Shown: positions 318 through 21,106 of the stretch, piece by piece
How positions within the stretch are numbered: position 1 is the first letter of the stretch
How the letters are laid out: each line of letters starts with the position of its first letter
Source: a virus
IMG/VR virus record: IMGVR_UViG_3300009012_000002
Span: 1 to 44,957 of that record
Strand: one strand, 5' to 3'
Length of the DNA stretch: 44,957 bases
The notes under the pieces: model-generated
The model's database searches: none
The model's input: the letters and a program-made list of their open reading frames with translations, nothing else
What the model was told of the DNA's origin: nothing
Position numbers and translations under genes: made by a program

Positions 318-1559
318 TCACTTTTTCTCCTTACTAGCCATGTACTTCTTATAGCTCTCAAGTGGTTCACCAGACAAATGAACTTGCCAATCCATATGAA
401 CTCCAACTCCTACCTTTTGACGCTTTATCCATCCCATCTCTAATAAATTATCCATTATCTGGTCTAATGTAAAACTGTTGTATACTCCATAACCTCTCCA
501 TAATAATTGTTTGCGGCTCATCTCTTGGCCTGGTGCCGCTAACAAGTAATCTAACACAGCTTTAGTCGATGCGGCTAATGGGTCAGGTCCTCTACCTTCT
601 GTCGTTCTCTTATTGGAATAGACTAAATTAGTTACTTTATTAATGGAATCTTCTATATCTAACTGACTAATCTCTCCAGTAAAATCGTAATTACTCAATG
701 CTAAACACATTGAGACTTTAAGTACATGGTCTGGAACTCTATTCATAAATCCAGTCTTATCATATGTTTGAGATGCACGCCACTTACGGCGCCATGTATT
801 AAATAACTCTCTTGCGTCAGTTGATGGAACTAGCTGTCCCTTATGAGTTGAAACTTTAACTAAATGTGGGACATATTTTGGAATGATGTAATCATCAAAT
901 TTATCACCTTTGCCACCATTATCTGTATCCAATAGGTCTACGTCTTGACTTCTTTTCTCTTCATAGACAATGAGATTTCTACCAATATATCCTCCTTCAA
1001 TATTAGCTTGTGGAATAGAATCATAAAAATGAGCTGGGGAAGACCCAAACAATGCTGTGATATATGGATTTTTGAGCTTCTCGGCTCCATCACCCTTAAG
1101 TAAATTAATCCATTCCGGATTGAAGTTACCGTCATATAAATCCGTGAGGATGGTAAGTGAATCTGGGTCTGCAATAATCGCAGTAGATAATTCGCCATTA
1201 ATAATGAAGCCTCTACTATCAGCTATAGGTGGTTTACCTTCTTTAGTTCTGCTAGTAGCTAGTTCTTTAATGATAGCTTGAATCGAAGAACGGCCTGCTA
1301 TGACTCTTGTAACATCTGCTTTAGATACTAATAATTTAGCACGATTAATTGGAAACCCTTTGCCAAGTCCGGAGTCGCCTAATAACATTATGTAAAGGTT
1401 AGGTTTATATATTAGGTCTCCTTTCAATGTAGTCAAATAATAGTTGTTTCCAGCCGCTGCTGAAATACAACTCAAAAAACTCCACCATAACCACGATTTG
1501 GGCGTTTCAACGTGTGAACATTCAGCTACCAACGAATCAACAAAGTTAATCTGACTCAT
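318..1559 (-). CDS. P-loop ATPase, DUF3987-like helicase/primase-associated protein
   Basis: A 413-residue protein with a clear Walker A motif GDSGLGKG at about residues 62-69. It is followed by motifs typical of phage DUF3987-type ATPases (RSSIQAIIKEL, then FIINGELSTAI as the Walker B-like region, and ALFGSSPAHF). The C-terminal part looks like a winged helix (AVLDYLLAAPGQEMSRKQLL). The family is usually linked to replicative helicase or primase-helicase function. It lies in the replication operon a few genes downstream of the DNA polymerase. The start is ATG, with an alternative TTG one codon upstream. It is the best replicative-helicase candidate here, but no DnaB or primase signature is seen. 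Confidence 0.65.
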   Translation of the reverse strand: MSQINFVDSLVAECSHVETPKSWLWWSFLSCISAAAGNNYYLTTLKGDLIYKPNLYIMLLGDSGLGKGFPINRAKLLVSKADVTRVIAGRSSIQAIIKELATSRTKEGKPPIADSRGFIINGELSTAIIADPDSLTILTDLYDGNFNPEWINLLKGDGAEKLKNPYITALFGSSPAHFYDSIPQANIEGGYIGRNLIVYEEKRSQDVDLLDTDNGGKGDKFDDYIIPKYVPHLVKVSTHKGQLVPSTDARELFNTWRRKWRASQTYDKTGFMNRVPDHVLKVSMCLALSNYDFTGEISQLDIEDSINKVTNLVYSNKRTTEGRGPDPLAASTKAVLDYLLAAPGQEMSRKQLLWRGYGVYNSFTLDQIMDNLLEMGWIKRQKVGVGVHMDWQVHLSGEPLESYKKYMASKEKK

Positions 1560-1565
1560 CAAGCA

Positions 1566-2815: not shown

Positions 2816-2862
2816 ATCCTCACCTTCCTCATCTCAGCATAATTCGTATCACTAATTTCTAC
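2812..2862 (-). pseudogene. Leftover 3' tail of the DNA polymerase gene
   Basis: On the minus strand these 17 codons read VEISDTNYAEMRKVRI-stop. The intact polymerase upstream ends IEISDTNYAEMRPIKL-stop. Eleven of the first 12 residues match (I/V differs), while nucleotide identity over those 36 bases is only 26/36, nearly all differences being synonymous. The stop overlaps the ATG of the next gene as ATGA. The HNH stop codon overlaps the first codon of this segment. It reads as the original end of the polymerase gene, displaced by an HNH element carrying a recoded replacement end. Confidence 0.75.
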
Positions 2863-3305
2863 CTCTTATTATTATAGTTAAGAGAATGTTTAGTTCTACA
2901 CGCTTTACACCATCTATGGACTTGACCAGTCTTATAATCTTTCCAGATATATAAATTCAATCCGGATAACTTATGGCCGTGTTTACAAAATTCTTTATTA
3001 GTATTCGGATTCTTGAATGTTCCATCTTTAACAGCATCTAGAGTGTTAGTTGAAGTATTACCAATGTATATATGTTCTGGGTTCCAGCAAAATTTAGTTT
3101 TACAGGTGTGACATATTAAGTTGTCGGAGTATAAATCAAAACCTAAATGTATAAATGCTGATACTCTATTGACTAAATGATTTCTACCAAGAAAATGTAA
3201 CTCCCTTTTAACTTTACCAGATGGAGTTAACATAACCCAACAATTACTATCTGTAACTATTCTTCTCTTTATAAGTCTATTTAGCAGGGATTGTCTTAAG
3301 TTCAT
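2859..3305 (-). CDS. HNH homing endonuclease inserted behind the DNA polymerase gene
   Basis: A 148-residue protein with the phage HNH layout: NRVSAFIHLG, then LICHTCKTKFCWNPEHIYIG near the middle, giving the His, Asn and His of the HNH fold plus zinc-binding Cys. A C-terminal zinc finger follows (FCKHGHKL ... RWCKACR). It shares SAFIHLG, CWNP and the C-terminal finger with the HNH at 8045..8506, so the two are paralogues. Its ATG overlaps the polymerase stop as ATGA, and its stop overlaps the displaced polymerase tail. Expected role: a site-specific nuclease that cuts element-free polymerase genes. The first conserved His in the VHRLSA segment of the paralogue is Asn here. Confidence 0.85.
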   Translation of the reverse strand: MNLRQSLLNRLIKRRIVTDSNCWVMLTPSGKVKRELHFLGRNHLVNRVSAFIHLGFDLYSDNLICHTCKTKFCWNPEHIYIGNTSTNTLDAVKDGTFKNPNTNKEFCKHGHKLSGLNLYIWKDYKTGQVHRWCKACRTKHSLNYNNKR

Positions 3306-5761
3306 AATTTAATTGGCCGCATCTCTGCGTAATTAGTATCTGATATTTCAATCGAACACGGTATAGTCAACATATAATTACGTTTAAGACTACAATAAGT
3401 ACTGAAGTCAATGGGAGTTTCAAAATGTTTCTTCATCAATCTGGCATAAATCTCCCAGTTATTCTCTGGCACTTGCATCTTCAAACTATCATGGTCTTCA
3501 CTTAACCACATGACAGCATTATCGCCATTCAATTCATCATCAATAGCTAGAGCGGCTCCTTGCACTAAATGTGCTACTGTTCTTTGTGGTATGTTGGCGT
3601 AACCTTCTTTATATATCTCTTCGTCCATTCTGCCGTTGAATATTCTAAGTCCACCAAATGGGTCCACAATAGCACGCGTTGATTGGACGCAATCTTTGAT
3701 ATCTTGATGGAATTTACTGCGTATCCTTGGAGATGCACCGTGGAATAAATCAAGCATCTGACCAGCACGCCATTCGCTAATAGACATAGGTATGTCATAC
3801 TTTTGAGCATCTGTATTAAACTCTACCATAAACCTATTTTTGCCCATATCATAATTGCCAGCATGTCTTGTCTTCTTTCCACAGAACCTCTCAGGTCCAT
3901 CCTTTTCCATTATATCTACTACTGGAATTGATTCAGTTGTAAGTATTAATTTCTGGCAATATCCAAACATTAGTCCAGCCGTTCGTCTATGTATATCTAC
4001 TTTATCGAACGCTTCAAGTAACTCCCAGTCTTCAGATAATACAGCTACTACTCTTGCTTCAGCCTGACTAGAGTCTGCACTAAGGAAGATAGTTCCTTCG
4101 TCTGGTATAAACATGCTTCGTATGTCTTTAGCCAATCTCCCATGCTTAGAGATAGTGTGAAATGCAAGTCCGATTTTCTTTGGTCTAACTGGCTTCTTAA
4201 GAATGCTTGTAGAGCTTCTGCAAGTTTCTGTTGCTGATATATTGAAAGAAGTTTTGCATCTTCTGTCGTAATCTGAATTGAAATTGATATACCTGCTTTT
4301 TTGTGTCCTGATACGTCTCTCTTCGAGTAAGTCTGTGAGGATTGCTTTCTTCTCTTTTGTCTTGGCATGATTACCCAGCAGTGCAACTATAGTATCTTCA
4401 GATGTTGGATTACGCTTCATATACTTAAATTTCATTTCTCTATATAATAACTCAAACATTTGTGGATAACTATTAACATTTACTTCATGACCAACTGCTA
4501 TAGTCACACGGTCATGAACTACTTTAGCCATTTCTGTATATTTCTTGCGTAATTCTTTCTGTCGTGGAGCATTAACGGCAAAGCCGTTATTTTCCATCTT
4601 CAAATAAAACTTATGTTTCCTCATCATGTAGTCATAATAATATTCCCTCAATGGTATGTTGTATGTAGTTCCCAGGTCAATTAAGTCTTGGTCTTGTACT
4701 TCGTCAATCTCGTATTCAACAGCACAGTCCTTGCCATTATATTTAAATAACTGTTCTACGTTCTGCTTACCTAACTTAAATTCTTTTCCTTCTTCTTTAT
4801 AATATGGCTCACGAGTCCAGAGAGAACTAATCACATGTAGCTTCTTCTCTGGCAATTCAGGAAATATAACTCTTGTCTTAATCAATGTATCAGAATAAAT
4901 ATGTGGCAATTCAAACCCAATCAAGTTAAGTTTAAACTCGTCGTACTTTAAGTTCTGTCCAACTAACTTCAGCCGTCTTAATTGTTCATCAATTAATTTC
5001 CAGATTTCATCCATTTCATGGTCGCCCATATCAGTAAGCCTATACTTACCAATATTGCGAAGTAACGGTATAGATATGGCATGATGCCTGTTGAAAGCAA
5101 ATCCAATACAGACAGGAACGCAATTAATAGACTCAATATCAGTAACTGCTTTGTCGAGTTTTTCATATTTGGCAAAGAACCTATACAAGTCAAGTGAACT
5201 ATGACAAACATCTAGTTGTCTGTCAGGTAATACTAACGCTCGTGTCTTAGATTCCTCAACAGCACGAGCTATATCATGCTCAATTAATTTAATGTATGTG
5301 TATTCTAATCCACCCTTATCACCCCTGTTAAATAGTGCGGCTGGATGAACTGTTGGAACTACCTTAGTAACACCATCCTTAGCCAATAATATGCTACCAC
5401 GATACTTAAGGATACCAGTATAACCAGTAACGTGCTCTAATGCTGTGTCACCAACAGCCAAAATACATTTAGGTTTAAGACGGTGTATTTCTTCATCCCA
5501 TAACCTCTTAGCTTCATCAGATAAATCCACACCTATCATATGTAACTTTTTCAAGTCATTCATGGGTGGCTGATACTTGCATACATTTGTTACATATACC
5601 TGATTACGTCTTATCCCAGCCTTATTTAGACAATCATTAAGCATTTCTCCTGATGGTCCTGAGAACGGTATACCAGTTTCATTCTCATGTTTACCAGGTG
5701 CCTCTCCTACTACCATTAAATCTGGCTCAATAGGACCTATTCCTTCAACGTATCTTGGCAA
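3302..5761 (-). CDS. Uracil-DNA glycosylase/family A DNA polymerase fusion
   Basis: An 819-residue replicative polymerase. Residues about 14-150 form a UDG-superfamily domain with GEAPGKHENETGIPFSGPSG and the second motif TVHPA. A 3'-5' exonuclease follows: TDIES near 208, GQNLKYDE, and YNGKDCAVEYE. The polymerase domain has motif A ADSSQAEARV (about 560), motif B KKTRHAGNYDMG (about 630) and motif C EDHDSLKM (about 754). Motif B has His where family A usually has Lys, and motif C reads HDS rather than HDE. The catalytic Asp residues remain. The start is TTG, overlapping the upstream gene. The last 12 conserved codons are duplicated beyond the adjoining HNH gene. Confidence 0.9.
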   Translation of the reverse strand: MPRYVEGIGPIEPDLMVVGEAPGKHENETGIPFSGPSGEMLNDCLNKAGIRRNQVYVTNVCKYQPPMNDLKKLHMIGVDLSDEAKRLWDEEIHRLKPKCILAVGDTALEHVTGYTGILKYRGSILLAKDGVTKVVPTVHPAALFNRGDKGGLEYTYIKLIEHDIARAVEESKTRALVLPDRQLDVCHSSLDLYRFFAKYEKLDKAVTDIESINCVPVCIGFAFNRHHAISIPLLRNIGKYRLTDMGDHEMDEIWKLIDEQLRRLKLVGQNLKYDEFKLNLIGFELPHIYSDTLIKTRVIFPELPEKKLHVISSLWTREPYYKEEGKEFKLGKQNVEQLFKYNGKDCAVEYEIDEVQDQDLIDLGTTYNIPLREYYYDYMMRKHKFYLKMENNGFAVNAPRQKELRKKYTEMAKVVHDRVTIAVGHEVNVNSYPQMFELLYREMKFKYMKRNPTSEDTIVALLGNHAKTKEKKAILTDLLEERRIRTQKSRYINFNSDYDRRCKTSFNISATETCRSSTSILKKPVRPKKIGLAFHTISKHGRLAKDIRSMFIPDEGTIFLSADSSQAEARVVAVLSEDWELLEAFDKVDIHRRTAGLMFGYCQKLILTTESIPVVDIMEKDGPERFCGKKTRHAGNYDMGKNRFMVEFNTDAQKYDIPMSISEWRAGQMLDLFHGASPRIRSKFHQDIKDCVQSTRAIVDPFGGLRIFNGRMDEEIYKEGYANIPQRTVAHLVQGAALAIDDELNGDNAVMWLSEDHDSLKMQVPENNWEIYARLMKKHFETPIDFSTYCSLKRNYMLTIPCSIEISDTNYAEMRPIKL
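3317..3352 (-). repeat. Recoded copy of the polymerase C-terminal segment
   Basis: These 12 codons, IEISDTNYAEMR, are part of the intact polymerase. They correspond to 2827..2862 on the other side of the HNH gene. Nine of twelve codons differ between copies, eight of them synonymously, including TCA versus AGT for Ser and CGG versus AGG for Arg. That is expected if this copy arrived with the homing element and carries a changed cleavage site. Confidence 0.7.
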
Positions 5762-6157: not shown

Positions 6158-6393
6158 CTTATCCTCGACATTACCTCTTGTTCTAAAGACTTATACATTG
6201 GGTCAAAAATAAGACCTCCAAATTCCCATGCTAACGCATCTTCTTTGGAAGTTACGATTACATAAGTAGTTCCATCTCCTGCAGTTAAGCTTCTCATAGT
6301 AGAATTATAAATGACTATATCGTAAGTTGAACGAAGCCATCTAACTGTAGTAGTTATATTATCAGATATAACAGCGATTGGTTTCTTAATCAT
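6154..6393 (-). CDS. Hypothetical protein, 79 aa
   Basis: Predicted alpha/beta protein starting MIKKPIAVISDNITTTVRWL, with a central GDGTTYVIVTSKEDALAWEF segment. It overlaps the upstream gene by 8 bp and the downstream gene as ATGA. The pattern resembles small phage proteins of unknown role. No catalytic motif is seen. Confidence 0.6.
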   Translation of the reverse strand: MIKKPIAVISDNITTTVRWLRSTYDIVIYNSTMRSLTAGDGTTYVIVTSKEDALAWEFGGLIFDPMYKSLEQEVMSRIR

Positions 6394-6664
6394 AATCTAT
6401 TTCCTCCAATCGAATCTCTCTACGTTTTGAACGTACAAATTCCAACGCATCACGAGCTGATGTAAATCGTTTAAGTTGTTTCTCGTGTGTCTTAATCCAA
6501 CTGGCTAATAATAAATCTTGAGAGATAGAACCTATTGAACGGTTAAGAGCTTTTGCAGTCTTCTCTATTGTCCAATTAGACTCATCTCGACATTGGCTAG
6601 TATGAAACTTATGAATATCAATAGCTCTCTCTAACCAGTTTTGTTTAACTGGTGGAGACTTCAC
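6386..6664 (-). CDS. Helix-turn-helix protein, 92 aa
   Basis: The central segment WTIEKTAKALNRSIGSISQDL (residues about 31-51) has the spacing of a helix-turn-helix, with the invariant-type turn in RSIGSIS. It is followed by a basic helix (KTHEKQLKRFTSARDALEF). It could bind DNA as a regulator or accessory replication factor. The start is GTG, overlapping the upstream stop as GTGA. The target is unknown. The repeats at the putative origin are one possible target, but nothing here links them. Confidence 0.6.
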   Translation of the reverse strand: MKSPPVKQNWLERAIDIHKFHTSQCRDESNWTIEKTAKALNRSIGSISQDLLLASWIKTHEKQLKRFTSARDALEFVRSKRREIRLEEIDYD

Positions 6665-8044: not shown

Positions 8045-8506
8045 TTAGCTAGTTTTTGTGTTGGTTTTTGGTTGGTTGTGCCTTCTATTTCTATTCATAG
8101 TATTATGACATAATTTACACCTTTTTGTTCCATCACTTCGTATCTTGCTATTTCCCTCCTTTGGATGCCCACATCTAAAGTTTGGCAGTAATGTTATATC
8201 TTTCATATTATCAGCATGTGTACCTACATGTAGACAGTTAGGATTCCAGCAATTTCTACGGAAACAACTTGGCTTATGTAGAGCATGAGAATCTGTATCT
8301 TTTAAGTTGAGACCTAAATGTATAAATGCCGATAATCTGTGAACCTCTATATCTCTGCCTTTAATTCCTCCAACTTGCATCACACCACGTCCACTATGTG
8401 TTGTCTTTCCAATCCATAACCAATGTCCATCTTCTGTTATCTCAGTCTTATTGTTAAGCCTAGCAAGAAGTCTCTTCTTATCATAGAACTTCTCTGGCTT
8501 AAGCAT
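8045..8506 (-). CDS. HNH homing endonuclease inserted behind the Sak4-like ATPase gene
   Basis: A 153-residue protein starting MLKPEKFYDKKRLLARL. The ATG follows the ATPase stop by one base with GGAGAA upstream; a longer frame would run inside the ATPase gene. Motifs: WLWIGKTTHSGRG, EVHRLSAFIHLGL, ALHKPSCFRRNCWNPNCLHV, GTHADNMKDI, then a C-terminal Cys finger (FRCGHPKEGN ... RCKLCHN). It is a paralogue of the HNH at 2859..3305. The usual second His (NPxH) is Cys. Its last ten residues NQPKTNTKTS resemble the ATPase tail NQPQTTPEPT, suggesting fusion to a displaced ATPase 3' end. Confidence 0.85.
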   Translation of the reverse strand: MLKPEKFYDKKRLLARLNNKTEITEDGHWLWIGKTTHSGRGVMQVGGIKGRDIEVHRLSAFIHLGLNLKDTDSHALHKPSCFRRNCWNPNCLHVGTHADNMKDITLLPNFRCGHPKEGNSKIRSDGTKRCKLCHNTMNRNRRHNQPKTNTKTS

Positions 8507-8507
8507 G

Positions 8508-9398
8508 TTAGATTCTCCATTTGGTTGGTTCTGGTGTGGTTTGTGGTTGGTTTGCGAATGGGTTGATTGCATTTGGAACTACTAACTGTTTGCTATCTAT
8601 TTCATTTGACACCACTCTCAGTTTGAGAACTTGCTCTTTCCAAACTTCGTAGAACAAGCGATTAGTAATTTCAAATTCACCTGTTAAACCCAGATTTGAT
8701 TTGGCGAAGTCGTCGCCTATTGCATCAGTAGATACTATATATCTAGTGCGGCTAGTTCCAGTAACGCTATCCCAATTACTTTGTTTAGCGAAATGATAAA
8801 TCTCGCTGAAATTACCAGGAACAATACTAGCCACTTTATTACCATATGTCACGATTGGATTTACTTTAGTTACTTTCATGGACGAACCAGAACCTTCAAT
8901 CTTAATCGATGGAACTGGATGACAAGTCCATATGACATGACATGGTAATGTTCTACAAATATCTAAACATTGTGTTACCAGACTTGTTTCAACCTTGTAT
9001 TCGTCAAAGTCTGGCATAATCTTATCTTTGTCTTTTGCTTTTTTGTTGTCTCTGAATGCTAGTGACCAGTTAACAGCGCCACTGGTCATGTTAGTAATAG
9101 AATCATTAATGATTGCAAAGTATCTACAATCTTTAACAAAGCCTATTAACTTGTTGAGAAATTCGTTTGCATTGCTAGCACCATATACGTCATACTCTAT
9201 ACGGTCTTGCAATTCTGGTCTATTGATAACTCTTCTAAAGAAATGGTCTAGCTCGATTGGTTTCTTCTTATCCCAATATGCTAAATAAATTGGCCCTTCA
9301 ACTGCAAATGTAGCCGCTGCCAATGTCTTACCAAAACCCCAAGGGCCTTTCATAAGTATAGATACGTTCTTATCTACGGAGATTTCACTAGCTTTCAT
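8508..9398 (-). CDS. Sak4-like AAA ATPase, phage recombination/annealing protein
   Basis: A 296-residue P-loop ATPase. Walker A is GPWGFGKTLAAATF near residues 19-32, and the Walker B-like strand is YFAIINDSIT. A third motif, HVIWTCHPVPS, matches RecA-like phage nucleotide-binding proteins (AAA family PF13479, Sak4 type). The C-terminal 25 residues are low-complexity (NPFANQPQTTPEPTKW), as in many single-strand binding partners. It sits with an SSB-like gene and a Cas4/RecB-like nuclease, forming a recombination module. The role is presumed to be strand annealing or replication-linked repair. Confidence 0.75.
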   Translation of the reverse strand: MKASEISVDKNVSILMKGPWGFGKTLAAATFAVEGPIYLAYWDKKKPIELDHFFRRVINRPELQDRIEYDVYGASNANEFLNKLIGFVKDCRYFAIINDSITNMTSGAVNWSLAFRDNKKAKDKDKIMPDFDEYKVETSLVTQCLDICRTLPCHVIWTCHPVPSIKIEGSGSSMKVTKVNPIVTYGNKVASIVPGNFSEIYHFAKQSNWDSVTGTSRTRYIVSTDAIGDDFAKSNLGLTGEFEITNRLFYEVWKEQVLKLRVVSNEIDSKQLVVPNAINPFANQPQTTPEPTKWRI

Positions 9399-9640: not shown

Positions 9641-9748
9641 TTATAATTTCCATCCCTGACTTCTTTCTCCACAATCATCACACATCAAATACATCTCGTT
9701 CTTTTCTATATGAAGATAAGTAGTTTTGTGTTTACACCTAAATATCAT
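9641..9748 (-). CDS. 35-aa zinc-knuckle microprotein
   Basis: The likely product is MIFRCKHKTTYLHIEKN... ending CDDCGERSQGWKL. A Cys-x-His and a C-x2-C pair suggest one zinc. The longer frame upstream (to 9874) lies inside the next gene and lacks sense, so the start is placed at 9748, where it overlaps the upstream stop by 11 bp. Similar FRCKHK...CxxCGxxSPGW peptides occur in phages. Function is unknown. Confidence 0.6.
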   Translation of the reverse strand: MIFRCKHKTTYLHIEKNEMYLMCDDCGERSQGWKL

Positions 9749-10097
9749 CTTCAGTAGGTTTAGATATAGCACTGTTAAGACGTGACCGCAAGTCTTCAGC
9801 GTTGTCACTAGCAAGCGAAGCCACGACTGGCGTACTATCACGCCTAACGTAATGCTTCTTTCCATCACTACCACTCACTTTCACCTTTCTACAATTGTTG
9901 CAACTTGGTAGATGCAACTTAATAGTGTATTCTGTCATGATGAATTCCATTCCACAAACATTACAAATAGATTCTTTACCCAAGGCTAATGGGCAATCAA
10001 TCTTAAAATAACAGTCTGTTAACGTGCAGAAATATATTGCATTACCAGTTGGATATATATGTCTCTTCAGTTTATGTGTGTGCTTTTTAGGTTTCAT
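9738..10097 (-). CDS. Zinc-binding HNH-like or Cys-cluster protein, 119 aa
   Basis: A basic N-terminus (MKPKKHTHKLKRHIYPTG) is followed by three Cys groups: YFCTLTDCYFKIDC, ICNVCGMEF and LPSCNNCRKVKV. These would bind one or two zincs. The tail (ASDNAEDLRSRLNSAISKP) is helical. No catalytic His/Asn arrangement is clear, so it is best called a nucleic-acid-binding zinc protein. The start overlaps the membrane microprotein gene as ATGA. Confidence 0.6.
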   Translation of the reverse strand: MKPKKHTHKLKRHIYPTGNAIYFCTLTDCYFKIDCPLALGKESICNVCGMEFIMTEYTIKLHLPSCNNCRKVKVSGSDGKKHYVRRDSTPVVASLASDNAEDLRSRLNSAISKPTEDDI

Positions 10098-11100: not shown

Positions 11101-11325
11101 TCAATATCCTTTTCGTCTGAATCTAGCTAGCACATCTTCTAGTGTTGCATCGCGTTTCTGTCTCTTAATAATATCATATTCTTTCTTCTTAATTACTATC
11201 TCATCTAAGTATTTAACTCCATATCCTTGATGCCAGAACGGATACAAGCGTGTAACTACATTAGCTGGTTGATTAGCTAACCAATGTTCGAGCATTACCT
11301 TATATGCTTGTGGATTGGCTTTCAA
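11101..11325 (-). CDS. Hypothetical protein, 74 aa
   Basis: Helical and basic, ending KRDATLEDVLARFRRKGY. The middle has FWHQGYGVKYLDEIV. The start is uncertain. A TTG at 11325 overlaps the upstream gene by 26 bp and has AGGA five bases ahead. An ATG at 11295 lies five bases after the upstream stop but has AAGG too close. The function is unknown. Confidence 0.55.
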   Translation of the reverse strand: MKANPQAYKVMLEHWLANQPANVVTRLYPFWHQGYGVKYLDEIVIKKKEYDIIKRQKRDATLEDVLARFRRKGY

Positions 11326-11827
11326 TGAAATCCTGCCAGCTAACTACTTTACATTCGTAAATTTCTGCAATCTTATTGATTCTATTATTGAATAGTTTAA
11401 TCCAATCTAGAAATATTTGTTCACCTTTTGCATCTGACTCTCTTATATTAAATAATGTGTCAATCTCTGCATATTCTGACCTATATCCTATTTTATGAAT
11501 AGCTACATTACCCCATTGTTTTATGATTCCACCTAAATAATAATAATAATTATAATTATTATAATAATTATAATTATTATTATAATAATTATAATAATAA
11601 TAATTATAATTATAATTATTATAATAATAATAATTATAATTATAAGAGTACAGCCCCGAATTGGTATACTTTACAACGTGTGGTCCTTCCAATTTGGACC
11701 ATTCATAATCTTGATTTTCTGACTTAAGAATGCTAGGCTTAGAATTATAACTTCTCCAATCTCTATATCCAATTAATGCTTTTGACTTATCGATTTGCTT
11801 AAATTCTATGAAGTCTGGTAGGCACAT
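11300..11827 (-). CDS. Conserved-type phage protein interrupted by an Asn/Tyr homopolymer tract
   Basis: A 175-residue protein starting MCLPDFIEFKQIDKSKALIG; the ATG overlaps the upstream stop as TAATG. The C-terminal half (GGIIKQWGNVAIHKIGYRSE) resembles phage proteins with a GxVxLWGxVxxHxxGYRAEYA pattern, usually preceded by a GIYA-like segment. Here that segment (SGLYS) is followed by about 36 residues that are only Asn or Tyr, encoded by a pure A/T trinucleotide-like tract at 11534..11645. The tract is in frame. It may be a tolerated, length-variable loop. Function is unknown. Confidence 0.65.
   Translation of the reverse strand: MCLPDFIEFKQIDKSKALIGYRDWRSYNSKPSILKSENQDYEWSKLEGPHVVKYTNSGLYSYNYNYYYYNNYNYNYYYYNYYNNNYNYYNNYNYYYYLGGIIKQWGNVAIHKIGYRSEYAEIDTLFNIRESDAKGEQIFLDWIKLFNNRINKIAEIYECKVVSWQDFIESQSTSI
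11534..11645. repeat. 112-bp pure A/T microsatellite of ATT/ATA-type units
   Basis: These positions contain no G or C. They consist of interleaved taa, taat and tat units, read on the minus strand as AAT and TAT codons (Asn and Tyr). Such tracts are prone to slippage and to assembly error. The frame stays open across it, so the present length is a multiple of three relative to the flanks. Confidence 0.9.
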
Positions 11828-12438
11828 TAGTTTAATTCCTCTCTTAATACTCTGATTACCTTGCAAAATTCATTCTCGTCATTAGCTTGGAAAGAACCAA
11901 TCTGCTCTTTCTTGTTATCATCTGGATTCTCATACAACCAGACTTTATCAATATAAATGCCAAGACTGGTAAGTTGTACATTGTAATCTATCATGAGTAA
12001 TTTAGGTTCTGGCTTAGGTGGTGGCTCTGCTCTACGAGTTACTTTATGAGCCGCTAACACTTTCTGTCCTAATCTAGCAGATGATTCGGCTGGAATTGGT
12101 TCTTTCGTGTGGTTATCACAGAAGTATGCTTTCTTGTCTTTTACTTCTATGACAACAAAATGGTTTGGGACTGTTATGATATACATTCCGTCTTCATTTG
12201 CAAGACGTATTAATGTCCCAAATAAACTACTACCTGATGGTGCTAGTATATTATCAAATCCCAACTTGTTTGCCGCCTTTAGCAAATCGCTTAATTGAAC
12301 GCCAGCAATATTATAGTTGCCGTTTACTTGTGTGATTACTTTCGCACATTCATCTGTGCTCTTACCTGTTAATATGGAAAGAACGGCTGGACCACAAAAC
12401 CTATTCATTCCAACATTAACTGCTTTTAAGTTAGTCAT
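11827..12438 (-). CDS. C39-like cysteine peptidase-fold protein
   Basis: Residues near the N-terminus, GMNRFCGPAVLSILTG, match the catalytic Cys helix of C39-type papain-like peptidases. YIITVPNHFVVIEVKD supplies the His, and YFCDNHTKEPIP a possible third residue. The C-terminal 80 residues are Pro/Lys-rich, then beta-like. The start is taken as the ATG (MTNLKAVNVG) with AGGT eight bases upstream; a GTG at 12492 would add 18 residues. Double-glycine leader cleavage is the usual C39 role, but no transporter or leader peptide is nearby. It could act on a host protein or be inactive. Confidence 0.55.
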   Translation of the reverse strand: MTNLKAVNVGMNRFCGPAVLSILTGKSTDECAKVITQVNGNYNIAGVQLSDLLKAANKLGFDNILAPSGSSLFGTLIRLANEDGMYIITVPNHFVVIEVKDKKAYFCDNHTKEPIPAESSARLGQKVLAAHKVTRRAEPPPKPEPKLLMIDYNVQLTSLGIYIDKVWLYENPDDNKKEQIGSFQANDENEFCKVIRVLREELN

Positions 12439-15628: not shown

Positions 15629-16123
15629 TTACTTATTACCAAATAATGATGATGGGTTGAACGGCTGTTTCACTTCTCCATTCTCTTTTACTTTCTGAAC
15701 TACTACAGCCGTTGGCTCAAATACTGGCTTATTGAATGTGACTGTCTTGAGATTCTTCTCTGTCGCTTTCCTCTCAAGATTAGATACCATCTCTTTGATG
15801 ATATCTTCGTCAATCCCAGCACTACGTAGTTGAGTTTGCAATCTATCCATTTTAGTCATTCGCTCTTTGCGAATTTTAACGGCATTGATTGCATCAGATG
15901 TGACTTGGTCTGGACCAGTGGGTGTTACTGTCCATTCCTTGTTAACTACTTTAGCCTTTCGTTCTCTTAGTTCGTCATCGGCAGCGGCTAATGTAGCCTT
16001 AGCTTCAAATGCTATTTGAGATAGCTCATCTCTATGTTCTCTTAGCTGAGTCGTATCCATGTCCTTAACAAGTATCTTTCCCTTGTTATAGAACTTGGCA
16101 TATAACTCTTCCTGTGGTGTCAT
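15629..16123 (-). CDS. Coiled-coil protein near the head of the replication operon, 164 aa
   Basis: The start is placed at MTPQEELYAKFY because GAAGGGAG lies nine bases upstream. A longer frame to 16270 has no ribosome binding site. Residues 15-60 form a charged coiled coil (LREHRDELSQIAFEAKATL, DDELRERKAKV). A second helix (RMTKMDRLQTQLRSAG) and a Pro/Asn-rich tail (KQPFNPSSLFGNK) follow. The tail resembles a docking peptide. No family is recognised. Confidence 0.55.
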   Translation of the reverse strand: MTPQEELYAKFYNKGKILVKDMDTTQLREHRDELSQIAFEAKATLAAADDELRERKAKVVNKEWTVTPTGPDQVTSDAINAVKIRKERMTKMDRLQTQLRSAGIDEDIIKEMVSNLERKATEKNLKTVTFNKPVFEPTAVVVQKVKENGEVKQPFNPSSLFGNK

Positions 16124-16370
16124 TATGCTTAACTCCCTTCCAGCAACAACTGACATTAAGTAATCAGGATTATTGTTGCTTATTTGATAGTGTTCACTCC
16201 TGTTACTCTGGTCTGCACACTTCGAGTTTAATCCAGAATTGAGTAGACCGCAGTAACAAAGCCATGACATTATTTTAATTCTTTTGTTAAGGTAGCAGTC
16301 GGTTCTTCTACCTACTTGTTATACTAAGTTTGGTAGACTCCGTATGCTTTAGTATATCAGTATCTCACTG

Positions 16371-16442: not shown

Positions 16443-16463
16443 TTGAATCTACCTCGTTTCTCT

Positions 16464-16493
16464 TGAATAAGAAGTGTCACCTAAAGAGGACAA
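16464..16493 (-). promoter_or_regulatory. Possible leftward promoter beside the repeat array
   Basis: On the minus strand TTGTCC (16488..16493) and TATTCA (16464..16469) are 18 bases apart. The -35-like element overlaps the first unit of the 10-bp repeat array, so a repeat-binding protein could repress the replication operon. The match to consensus is moderate, so this remains tentative. Confidence 0.3.
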
Positions 16494-16560
16494 ACGTGTC
16501 GGAACGTGTCGGTCTCTGTCGTATTGTGTCGGAACGTGTCGGAACGTGTCGTATCGTTGT
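16491..16560 (+). repeat. Left array of seven 10-bp repeats
   Basis: Seven consecutive 10-base units with consensus GGAACGTGTC (three exact copies at 16501, 16531 and 16541; variants at 16491, 16511, 16521 and 16551). The exact 10-bp period places every site on the same face of the helix, as expected for cooperative protein binding. The reverse-complement motif is arrayed at 16841..16907. Confidence 0.85.
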
Positions 16561-16676
16561 GCTCCGCGCAAGTCGTTGGCCTTCAGGGAGTTATCCTCAG
16601 AACGGAGTATACCATAGACTCCGCCAGATGTCAACCCCCCTCTCGTCCCTGGTGTGTCATTTGTGTCTTGTATGTA

Positions 16677-16714
16677 TTCTATATATATTTATATATATAT
16701 AAAAATATATATAA
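16677..16714. other. A/T-rich core of the palindrome, possible unwinding element
   Basis: About 38 bases are nearly pure alternating A and T with a short A5 run. The tract is at the dyad centre of the palindrome, inside otherwise GC-rich flanks. It is the natural place for strand opening in an iteron-type origin. Confidence 0.55.
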
Positions 16715-16840
16715 GAGATACTAACAAGAACACACACTGACCTAGGGGAGAAGAGGGGGGTCGCATATCGGCAGAGTCAGGGGTCTAGCCTCGAAACGCG
16801 GTTAACTTCCGTTCGGACAGCGACTTACAGCAACGCGAAG

Positions 16841-16907
16841 CGTTACGACGCGTTCCGACGGGATACGACGGATTACGACACTTCACGACACGTCACGACA
16901 CGTATGA
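16841..16907 (-). repeat. Right array of 10-bp repeats, inverted relative to the left array
   Basis: Units ending in ACGACG or ACGACA recur every 10 bases (CGTTACGACG, CGTTCCGACG, GGATACGACG, GATTACGACA, CTTCACGACA, CGTCACGACA, then a degenerate CGTATGACC). This is the reverse complement of the GTGTCG motif at 16491..16560, and its position mirrors that array about 16697. Confidence 0.8.
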
Positions 16908-16914
16908 CCTAAAT

Positions 16915-16923
16915 TGTGGACAA
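16915..16923 (-). other. DnaA-box-like site near the origin
   Basis: TGTGGACAA on the plus strand reads TTGTCCACA on the minus strand, one base from the DnaA consensus TTATCCACA. The same nonamer occurs again at 18410..18418. Host DnaA use is inferred only. Confidence 0.4.
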
Positions 16924-16983
16924 CGTAGCAATATCGAAACGTGTAATAAGCTAGTTATGAACACAATGGAAAGAGTGAGGGAG

Positions 16984-17037: not shown

Positions 17038-17493
17038 TTACGCTGCTGGCTTGACTGCGAATTGCTTGGCGAAGCCAGGCTTGATGAGACTCACGGCATC
17101 CTCAAGAGATACCATTGCACCGCGAGAGTAATTCCGAACGACAAGCCTGAACTGAGTCTGTGCGTCCGCTGGCCACGTCAAATCGACGTATTCTGCCAAC
17201 GGGTCAGATGCGGCAGTGTATGCAGAATCGTTGAATCCAGCAATCAGGAATGACACGAGAGAAGGCTCATCCTTCACTGCTGTGACATCCATGAATTGCT
17301 GAATGGTGGTTGGGAGTGTTTCTGGCTGTGATTCGTCGAAGGCCTCCCACGTAATGACTACGGGATTCTTTCCACGCGTTTGACCTACTCTCTCACGCAC
17401 TCCGACACCTTTCTTTGCGGCGTTCTTGATGTCCGCCTCTTTCTGCTTCCGTTCCACTTCGAGTTCTCGCGGTGACGCTGCTTCGACTGCCAT
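17038..17493 (-). CDS. Unrecognised 151-aa protein with its own strong promoter, beside the origin
   Basis: The N-terminal 40 residues are highly charged (ELEVERKQKEADIKNAAKKG). The rest looks globular (NPVVITWEAFDESQPETLP, AEYVDLTWPADAQTQFRL, VSLEDAVSLIKPGFAKQF). The base and codon use is far GC-richer than in neighbouring genes. A GGAGG ribosome binding site and a consensus sigma70 promoter suggest high expression. A palindrome of the origin repeat motif lies at the predicted transcript start. It could be the repeat-binding factor or another early, abundant protein. No family is recognised, so no function is assigned. Confidence 0.75.
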   Translation of the reverse strand: MAVEAASPRELEVERKQKEADIKNAAKKGVGVRERVGQTRGKNPVVITWEAFDESQPETLPTTIQQFMDVTAVKDEPSLVSFLIAGFNDSAYTAASDPLAEYVDLTWPADAQTQFRLVVRNYSRGAMVSLEDAVSLIKPGFAKQFAVKPAA

Positions 17494-17509
17494 GTTTGTA
17501 ACCTCCGTT

Positions 17510-17527
17510 TGTCGGGTAATTCCGACA
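17510..17527. promoter_or_regulatory. Inverted-repeat operator at the start of the 151-aa gene transcript
   Basis: TGTCGG (17510..17515) and CCGACA (17522..17527) form a palindrome with a 6-base spacer. These half-sites equal the core of the 10-bp repeats in the origin arrays. The site spans the predicted transcription start and lies just upstream of the ribosome binding site (17502..17506). A protein bound there would block initiation or early elongation. Confidence 0.55.
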
Positions 17528-17532
17528 CGCTG

Positions 17533-17561
17533 ATTATCTCACGACTCGACCGAATTGTCAA
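17533..17561 (-). promoter_or_regulatory. Consensus sigma70 promoter for the 151-aa gene
   Basis: On the minus strand TTGACA (17556..17561) is followed after exactly 17 bases by GATAAT (17533..17538). The -35 is perfect and the -10 differs by one base from TATAAT. Transcription should start near 17526. Confidence 0.8.
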
Positions 17562-18374
17562 GTGGAGATAAGAGATGAAACGATTTGATGCTGAAACCAG
17601 TCTACCGCTGTGACCTTACAGGCTTCGCTCGGCACTTAAGGCAAGCGTGTTAGATACTTGTCGTTTACTGCAAATAGACCAGAGTCAGCAATTCACATGC
17701 TAGTCTTTTATTACCAGTCGCGTTAGACTGTAGGACTAGACTTACAGTGAATTCTGTTGTGAAACCCATTTCGGAGTATCGGCGCAGCGACATAAGATGC
17801 AAGCCGCAATTTACGTTTGAGCAAGATTTTGTTAGCACGTCTAACATTAACCTCATTCTTAGTGATTGCTAGTCTTGCATAAGAACTAGTCAACATGGTT
17901 AGCCTCATGCTCTCTATTGTGTTCACATTTAGCAAACGTCACTATATTTGTTGCCTAATATACTCCCTTGCCTAAGTAGGTAAGCCGATATTAGACAGAG
18001 ACAGCGTATTGAGATATTAAGTAGGCTGCGCTTATCAGCCTCGGTTGGCGGGTCACCCGCGCAGGGCGTTTGCCGCCGTTACCGTTTTGGTTCCTGCTCT
18101 CAGGCTACCATCTGAGAATATATATAGCATGGCGTATGCCAAGGGTTCTAATATCAAAAACCACAATAGGTTGTGGTGTGTTTATTTGGTGTGCTGTATA
18201 TTGTGTTGTCGCTAGAGTCAGATGACCATAATCACTACGCTGTTTGTAAGAATTACATAGCAAAACCATACATTTTACTGTATGATTTTGATGCAGGCAA
18301 CATTTATGCCATTTCCATAATAGAACATTGTTAGATTTAAGCAAGTAGCATGCCATATTTTACTAATGTATATT

Positions 18375-18394
18375 GAGTCATATAGAGTCATATC
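18375..18394 (+). repeat. Paired GAGTCATAT repeats, first pair
   Basis: GAGTCATATA and GAGTCATATC lie end to end with a 10-bp period. A matching pair occurs 148 bases further on at 18523..18542. Two phased pairs upstream of the structural promoter suggest binding sites for a regulator. Confidence 0.6.
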
Positions 18395-18409
18395 GATATT
18401 GGCACGATT

Positions 18410-18418
18410 TGTGGACAA
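18410..18418 (-). other. Second DnaA-box-like site
   Basis: TGTGGACAA, identical to the nonamer at 16915..16923. It lies between the two AGTCATAT repeat pairs. One mismatch from the DnaA consensus on the minus strand. Confidence 0.3.
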
Positions 18419-18522
18419 TGCAATGACTATGCCAGTGAAAGGTCGGCACGGCTCTTGCTAGGTCAATAAGCATGCCAATGTTTTATTTTAGGACACGACA
18501 TTAAAGTTTATTAAATATCACA

Positions 18523-18542
18523 GAGTCATATTAAGTCATATA
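18523..18542 (+). repeat. Paired GAGTCATAT repeats, second pair
   Basis: GAGTCATATT and AAGTCATATA, again with a 10-bp period, mirror the layout of the pair at 18375..18394. The two pairs bracket a DnaA-like nonamer. Confidence 0.6.
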
Positions 18543-18722
18543 GGGGATATACCATAGATGTATAAAGAGTCTCATGAACAAGTAGTAAGTGCGGATATTA
18601 ATCACATTTGTTCTGGTCAATAAGCCAGATTTACAAATTACTAAAGACTAACATGATAGAAATATGGTTCCATACAATGAGACTCATACATAATATGATG
18701 TTTTCAAATTTTGAAATCTTCA

Positions 18723-18743
18723 CGCTCTTCGAGCGGTTTTGTT
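18723..18743 (+). terminator. Small hairpin terminator ahead of the structural promoter
   Basis: CGCTC (18723..18727), loop TTC, GAGCG (18731..18735), then GTTTTGTT. The stem is short but GC-rich and followed by T residues. It would stop rightward transcripts from the gene-poor region before the promoter at 18767, hinting that something upstream is transcribed rightward. Confidence 0.4.
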
Positions 18744-18766
18744 AGCGTTCATGCGATGTTTTCCGC

Positions 18767-18795
18767 TTGACAATGCGCTGCGTCAAGCCTACAAT
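18767..18795 (+). promoter_or_regulatory. Sigma70 promoter of the structural operon
   Basis: TTGACA (18767..18772), 17 bases, then TACAAT (18790..18795). Transcription should start near 18802, about 16 bases before the first ATG at 18818. This also argues against the longer reading frame that begins at 18767. The operon downstream runs to 44058 with no other obvious promoter. Confidence 0.75.
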
Positions 18796-20375: not shown

Positions 20376-21106
20376 AAGTCTATATAGGAGTTCCAACGGC
20401 TGAGAATGCAAGATTTGCAGTCTTCTATGATTATCTTGCACTTCTTGAGAAACCTACTACAACAATAGGTGCTAACTTCCATACAAACTCTGGAGCGTAT
20501 AATCGTAATCTGATTATTGATGATGCACTAGCTAACCGTTGCACTCACATTTTATTTATCGATGATGATATGGCATTTCCAGCTAACTCATTAATGAATT
20601 TATTGAAGCATGATAAAGATATTGTTAGTGGGCTTTTTCTACAAAGAAACTATCCACATATTCCAGCAATTTTTGATTTTGTTAACCAATCTCTTAGCTT
20701 TCATTATCTTCGGCATGGTGAGAGCGGCTTAATTGAGGTTGCCGCTTGTGGTTTTGGTTTTACATTAATTAAAACTAGAGTTTTCCAATCTATCGAGAAA
20801 CCATACATTAGAATGGGCGAAGTGTATAAAGATAAGCGTGGTGAAGATGTTGGTTTCTGTAATCGAGCTAGAGAAGCAGGATGGAAAATCTATTGTGATT
20901 TAGATACTATTATTGGTCATATCGGAGTAATTACATATTGGCCAAATAATATTAATTGTAAATGGTTTACATCAATTGATACTGGTGGTAGTGAGGTATT
21001 CAACATACCACAGAAAACTGGCTTCAAGCCAGAAATTAAAACACCATTATCATATACTACAGAGAATGATATGTATGCACATATGCTAGACTTGATTGAT
21101 AAGTAA
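20348..21106 (+). CDS. GT2-like glycosyltransferase, first paralogue
   Basis: A 252-residue protein starting METNSPRDVKVYIGVPTAEN. The GT-A signature HILFIDDDMAFP (DDD metal and sugar-nucleotide site) lies near residues 69-80. FLQRNYPHIPAIFDF, EVAACGFGFTLIKTRVF and EDVGFCNRAREAG follow, as in GT2 enzymes. It is clearly related to 30220..30924. Possible roles are glycosylation of virion proteins or modification of a host surface sugar. It overlaps the upstream gene by 28 bp. Confidence 0.75.
   Translation: METNSPRDVKVYIGVPTAENARFAVFYDYLALLEKPTTTIGANFHTNSGAYNRNLIIDDALANRCTHILFIDDDMAFPANSLMNLLKHDKDIVSGLFLQRNYPHIPAIFDFVNQSLSFHYLRHGESGLIEVAACGFGFTLIKTRVFQSIEKPYIRMGEVYKDKRGEDVGFCNRAREAGWKIYCDLDTIIGHIGVITYWPNNINCKWFTSIDTGGSEVFNIPQKTGFKPEIKTPLSYTTENDMYAHMLDLIDK

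Follow-up and report, generated by a model that had tools for sequence, protein, structure and literature searches.

In the gap that separates the leftward and rightward gene arms of this phage genome lies a large imperfect palindrome, and the element is probably a replication origin combined with an early control region. An initial annotation of the sequence had called it a candidate origin. That remains the best-supported reading, although two things offered alongside it, a DnaA-like nonamer and the GC skew, turned out to lend it no support. Across relatives the architecture of the element is conserved while the sequence of its arms is not, and within one phage the left arm matches the right.

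The window (the whole stretch of DNA analysed, a virus record of 44,957 nt) has a 123-nt repeat at its ends, as a circular assembly would. No close match to a named phage was found at the DNA level, and TerL and PolA relatives from named phages reach about 31% identity at most among the matches listed. The leftward gene set contains a replication module: a DUF3987 primase-helicase, a UDG-PolA fusion polymerase, a Sak4-like protein, a PD-(D/E)XK nuclease and an SNF2 helicase. Rightward genes run from 18767 on; among them are those for a head protein and, at 21106, for TerL. The genes that matter most here are the following:

44912-44041 and 16270-75, minus strand: leftward genes, containing the replication module
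318-1562, minus strand: primase/helicase-like protein (DUF3987)
3302-5761, minus strand: UDG-PolA fusion DNA polymerase (Pfam PF00476 and PF03167), downstream of the leftward promoter
9738-10097, minus strand: homologue of a predicted two-zinc protein, with the pattern HxH..CxxxxC..CxxC..CxxC
15629-16270, minus strand: A15, a 213-aa protein specific to the window clade, first gene of the leftward operon
17038-17493, minus strand: A17, a 151-aa protein adjoining the palindrome, of no family

The polymerase is a PolA with an N-terminal uracil-DNA glycosylase domain in a single open reading frame, and in the long relatives homologues match it over nearly its full length. Two HNH endonuclease-like genes (2859-3305 and 8045-8572) sit amid the replication genes. 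Elsewhere in the window, the predicted protein at 11300-11866 has a long low-complexity tyrosine/asparagine stretch (YNYNYYYYNNYNYN...) that the mirror scan also picks up, with an axis near 11600, and the roughly 1.3 kb at 17500-18767, which separates the rightward operon from the palindrome region, carries short repeats (GAGTCATAT) and no convincing genes. Searches of the window for RNA families and tRNAs found none.

The palindrome itself is made up of these parts:

16487-16910, no strand: imperfect palindrome, axis near 16698 (blastn self-match, minus strand)
16492-16551, plus strand: left array, six 10-bp repeats of the GAACGTGTCG type (units AAACGTGTCG, GAACGTGTCG and so on)
16552-16561, plus strand: degenerate left unit, inward of the left array
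16606-16634, minus strand: predicted leftward sigma-70 promoter inside the left arm (TTGACA at 16634-16629, 17-bp spacer, TATACT at 16611-16606), score 11 of 12
16634-16639 (approximate ends), plus strand: C6 tract on the left inner flank of the core, from the sequence
16678-16714, no strand: A/T core, TA steps around AAAAA, proposed DNA-unwinding element
16754-16759 (approximate ends), plus strand: G6 tract on the right inner flank, mirroring the C6 tract, from the sequence and alignment
16840-16899, minus strand: right array, six 10-bp repeats of the GTCGTAACGC type in mirror orientation (read from 16899 to 16840, GTCGTGACGT and so on)
16900-16909 and 16830-16839, minus strand: degenerate units flanking the right array

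The initial annotation had placed a large imperfect palindrome near 16697, and it is there: a blastn comparison of 16450-16950 with its own genome returned the segment itself and a minus-strand match covering 16487-16910 (68%, E=1.1e-27), and alignment of 16487-16910 with its own reverse complement gave 68% identity over 424 bp, with gaps. An ungapped mirror scan of all positions put the top axis at 16698.5 with 103 of 210 pairs matching (mean 55, sd 6.9), and a gapped scan reached 117 at 16701 (mean 22.9, sd 5.7); by both scans this is the strongest palindrome of the circular genome. The gapped score between left and right arm was 214, compared with 92 +/- 9 (maximum 120) for shuffled 30-nt blocks. 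The palindrome score credits tracts that mirror each other in composition as well as true repeats; the tests of own against foreign arms described below use real arms as controls. Mirror homology between the arms extends beyond the arrays over their full length, the promoter segment included, as if the left had been copied in mirror image to give the right arm, where the promoter is degenerate.

Seven repeats had been counted on each side; there are six on each, with degenerate units outside the arrays. The 10-bp phasing was read correctly: self-match at lag 10 is 0.68 and 0.67 in the two arrays, compared with 0.10-0.20 at lags 9 and 11. Scored in 60-nt segments, the arrays reach 39 matches; the rest of the window gives 26, and 60 Markov-simulated windows give no more than 29. 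The mirrored C6/G6 tracts and the A/T core are also present as described, and palindrome, arrays, tracts and core are all far above chance. Two features by which iteron origins are recognised are thus found in the window: a repeat array in helical phase, and an adjoining A/T-rich element (16678-16714) that is predicted to melt. The DnaA-like nonamer did not hold up, being represented by one-mismatch words without conservation (TTATCCTCA near 16591 and TGTGGACAA near 16915).

The left arm also carries a promoter sequence. Across 29 palindromes, left arms have a mean promoter score of 9.97 of 12, whereas right arms average 7.3 and random segments 7.5, and a score of at least 10 is reached by 62% of the palindromes and by 0.8% of random segments. 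Nearly all of the 29 have a leftward promoter in the same place, and their right arms are never equally strong. In the window lineage this promoter would read into the replication operon. A search for sigma-70 promoters, the one type within its scope, found no rightward promoter in the right arm or the core. The left-arm promoter was absent from the initial annotation, as were the zinc protein considered below and the joint variation of the arms.

The initial annotation had named relatives lacking conserved arrays at this site as a finding that would refute the origin, and the proposal passed this check: the architecture is kept at the site, although the array sequences differ. In a blind palindrome scan of relatives gathered by TerL, about 25 of 29 have the best palindrome of their locus at the A/T core, and the core lies at the axis in relatives too. 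The 10-bp arrays occur in the window, L005, L006, L012/L018 and L121 (genome G024); the arms of other relatives consist of purine, pyrimidine or GT/CA tracts that are likewise mirrored. An arm matches the opposite arm of its own phage with a mean score of 51.6, compared with 24.2 for the arms of other phages, and the own arm ranks first in 21 of 28 cases; the own-arm trace is 1445, compared with a maximum of 938 in 5000 permutations (the test kept L073, whose core was misplaced). No comparable palindrome at an A/T core was found in CRP-3 (first 50 kb), HTVC115P (50 of 55 kb), Pam5, Mel-JY34, MW202455 or MW202444.

The window lineage does not look like a DnaA-dependent oriC, a candidate that was rejected since no DnaA-box cluster was found. 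Exact DnaA boxes number zero in the 23 kb around 29 cores, with none within 400 bp of a core; one-mismatch boxes occur at 0.47 per kb near cores and 0.30 per kb far from them. Many relatives (L009, L016, L019, L021, L044, L059, L061 and others) carry CACAG direct repeats (GCGCACAGC, TTACACAGG, GCGTACAG) about 100-1500 bp to the right of the core, nearly all on one strand. These are possibly a second iteron set; they are missing in the clade with 10-bp arrays, which counts against the origin reading. GC skew was likewise rejected as evidence for an origin. The skew has a minimum near the palindrome in the window, yet it follows gene direction: third-position skew of rightward genes is 0.24, compared with 0.15 beyond the antipode, which is no reversal. 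Because the skew does not flip at the antipode, it is read as an effect of gene direction; it gives no sign of bidirectional replication from the palindrome, and the origin gains no independent support from it.

In most relatives the first leftward gene encodes a small protein, predicted to be a binder of two zinc ions, whose pattern of HxH, CxxxxC, CxxC and CxxC is invariant across the alignment. It belongs to no known family or fold (the best PDB match has E=2), although its structure model is good (pLDDT 87). The window has a homologue at 9738-10097 (HMM match 6e-25, to a profile that includes it) that aligns in all eight ligand columns and is 50% identical in G024. The profile of the whole family was too diverse for scanning the collection, so subtype profiles were used instead. 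Similarity of the zinc protein correlates with similarity of the far arm (Mantel rho 0.49, p=2e-4), and the correlation is unchanged when TerL is controlled for; TerL similarity itself does not track the far arm (Mantel 0.09, n.s.). Four zinc-protein subtypes predict far-arm type in 26 of 31 phages (permutation p=5e-5), the arm-type rule having been set on loci that form most of the 31 scored; for the seven loci found by the zinc gene alone, the type was right in five. The sequence of both arms can thus be predicted from the zinc-protein subtype, and phage relatedness does not account for this. The clearest single case is the pair L019 and L059. Their nearby flanks are 96-98% identical and their 37-bp cores are identical, but the zinc gene with the left arm and, separately, the right arm share no similarity, so that gene and arms on both sides were replaced jointly while the core stayed fixed. 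The correlation between arm and gene is due in part to co-inheritance of neighbouring DNA, which does not, however, simply explain the L019/L059 swap.

In the window clade the arrangement is different. The zinc homologue lies away from the palindrome, which is flanked instead by the products of 15629-16270 (A15) and 17038-17493 (A17). G024, an independent circular assembly, is organised likewise, with the zinc homologue followed by the 15629-type gene, the palindrome and the 17038-type gene. A17 had been named as a possible binder in the initial annotation and is retained as one because it is specific to the window clade and adjoins the palindrome: it is found in the array-bearing L005, L006, L012/L018 and G024, and in L004, at 66-79% identity, and it is absent from 12 long relatives with other arm types. 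A search of GTDB genomes gave no match to A17, and its AF2 model was too poor to use (pLDDT 52). The N-terminus of A15 (window 15629-16270, L005 3127-3765, L012 3649-4284) resembles a RanBP2-type zinc finger, with a WxCxxC..N..CxxC pattern that L012 preserves intact and of which the window and L005 have degenerate versions. The other protein suggested as a binder, the HTH protein at 6386-6664, was dropped: no homologue was found in 12 long relative genomes and the array-bearing contigs, not all of which cover its place. For a cognate initiator gene beside the origin, the candidate in relatives is the zinc protein, where co-variation is observed, and the neighbouring candidates in the window clade are A15 and A17. 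The putative array binders of this clade are A15, A17 and the zinc homologue at 9738-10097.

A second TerL lineage shows a similar design. MW202489 and Desulfofustis phage LS06-2018-MD01 have related UDG-PolA-type polymerases and a strong palindrome around an A/T core, and among TerL relatives of MW202489 a palindrome with an A-tract core is present in about 13 of 26 loci. The own arm ranks first in 13 of 14 cases (own 77, cross 24; controls at random positions have a mean of 23 and sd of 6, and one of them reached 76). No strong promoter was found in the arm at most of these loci. Exact DnaA boxes, however, are concentrated here: nine in 12 kb at palindromes compared with two in 260 kb elsewhere (Fisher 3e-11, a p-value that overstates the number of independent events since the enrichment is due to just L202 and L171). 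The L202 boxes are arranged as mirrored arrays to the left and right of an A11 core, with a spacing of about 11-12 bp on the right, and by its anatomy this element is an origin. UDG-PolA occurs in eight of ten long palindrome-bearing contigs of this lineage and in none of six palindrome-free ones, a count made on possibly incomplete contigs and uncontrolled for relatedness. L165 and L236 have a related PolA and no such palindrome; L231 has the palindrome and no PolA match.

These observations suggest how the element could work. Host RNA polymerase would fire the left-arm promoter and transcribe the replication genes leftward, and a cognate protein would load in helical phase on the arrays of both arms. 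Transcription away from the core would leave the core negatively supercoiled, the A/T core between its G/C tracts would melt, and the DUF3987 primase-helicase and UDG-PolA would be loaded there. By covering the promoter arm, the protein would in addition hold down expression of its own operon. An origin combined with an early control region is favoured because the parts fit known origin requirements and have a parallel in HSV OriS (see below). The recurrent mirror design is probably an undescribed type of phage origin in which the repeats are matched to the phage's own binding protein. A bolder generalisation, which we hold tentatively and think somewhat more apt to fail than to stand, is that this is a widespread class of phage origin loaded from both sides: initiators would be interchangeable (the two-zinc family, host DnaA, a third type), both arms and any phage-encoded initiator gene would be swapped around a fixed melting core, and the right arm would keep the symmetry without the promoter. 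Searches of an open-access library turned up no account of the architecture, and its novelty is hence provisional.

The main rival to this reading is pure transcription control, in which the arm binder (the zinc protein, or A15 or A17 in the array clade) would regulate its own gene by forming a loop between the promoter operator and a mirrored auxiliary operator beyond the core, and would play no part in replication. Such a protein would account for mirrored segments that overlap the early promoter and start region, for a regulator that would be the first gene of the same operon, and for the co-variation of arm and gene subtypes. We nevertheless consider it unlikely: it leaves unexplained why an A/T core is conserved at the axis, why arms can consist of DnaA boxes and why there is an association with UDG-PolA, and the scarcity of strong promoters in second-lineage arms also speaks against it. 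An RNA-level version would make the arms a leader pair like lambda nutL and nutR, shared by divergent transcripts, with an antiterminator as first leftward gene. The left arm does lie partly within the leader of the leftward transcript, and a first gene specific to its leader would be exchanged jointly with the arms, as observed. Divergent transcripts through both copies are not seen, however, as far as sigma-70 promoters go (none points rightward from the right arm or core), the right arm in the window faces a minus-strand gene, and strict 10-bp phasing fits a DNA-level feature more naturally, all of which makes this version improbable. Plasmid R1 parC has two clusters of phased short repeats flanking a promoter, and the resemblance raises the idea of a partition site; it is very improbable, since no ParM/ParA/ParB-like match was found among the window proteins scanned (palindrome neighbours included), second-lineage arms can be DnaA boxes, and the clusters are mirrored rather than direct. 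Least credible of all is a telomere-resolution (protelomerase) site or cruciform-forming palindrome, which would suit a large palindrome with an A/T core in a circularly assembled genome, but the arms are just 68% matched and gapped, whereas the telomere palindromes of N15-type phages are near-perfect, and no tyrosine recombinase or protelomerase match was found among the window proteins scanned, most large ones included.

The origin reading has some wider consequences. Homology searches cannot keep pace with the divergence of phage origins, which is why few are known for uncultivated phages; an element that conserves symmetry instead of sequence can be found blind in other genomes. Joint replacement of a gene and both arms amounts to a natural experiment in protein-DNA specificity, and it supplies a new family of zinc proteins for which many target sequences are predicted. 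A further question is why there are matching arrays on both sides when the promoter is on one only.

Several known systems share parts of this design. A likeness to bacterial oriC is seen in L202, whose arms are DnaA-box arrays beside an A-tract core; unlike oriC, the phage arrays are mirrored on both sides, and most relatives and the window have no exact DnaA boxes. The lambda control modules, N with nutL/nutR and OL/OR, are exchanged between relatives as units made up of the first leftward gene and its two matched sites. The gene and two matched sites are exchanged jointly here as well; the differences are that no rightward sigma-70 promoter accompanies them and that the phage sites are mirrored around an A/T core. 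Origins more generally combine phased iterons with an A/T unwinding element and G/C-rich flanks, and an outward promoter helps (PMC5043065). The iteron origins of lambda, P1, RK2 and R6K have repeats in helical phase to which a replicon-specific initiator binds, an A/T element, an outward promoter that aids opening, and G/C-rich flanks. The element described here has the same layout, with a putative initiator, but it has matched arrays mirrored on both sides of its core, inside a 420-bp palindrome. The nearest functional parallel is HSV OriS, where inverted initiator boxes flank an AT spacer and cooperative binding is thought to bend and destabilise that spacer (PMC12543377, in which the OriS oligonucleotide used was shorter than 100 nt). 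The HSV initiator OBP is a superfamily 2 helicase, whereas the candidate binders of the phages are small proteins without a helicase domain. Inverted sites around an AT spacer are found in both, a likeness in working rather than a claim of membership, and where OriS has single boxes the phage element has whole arrays.
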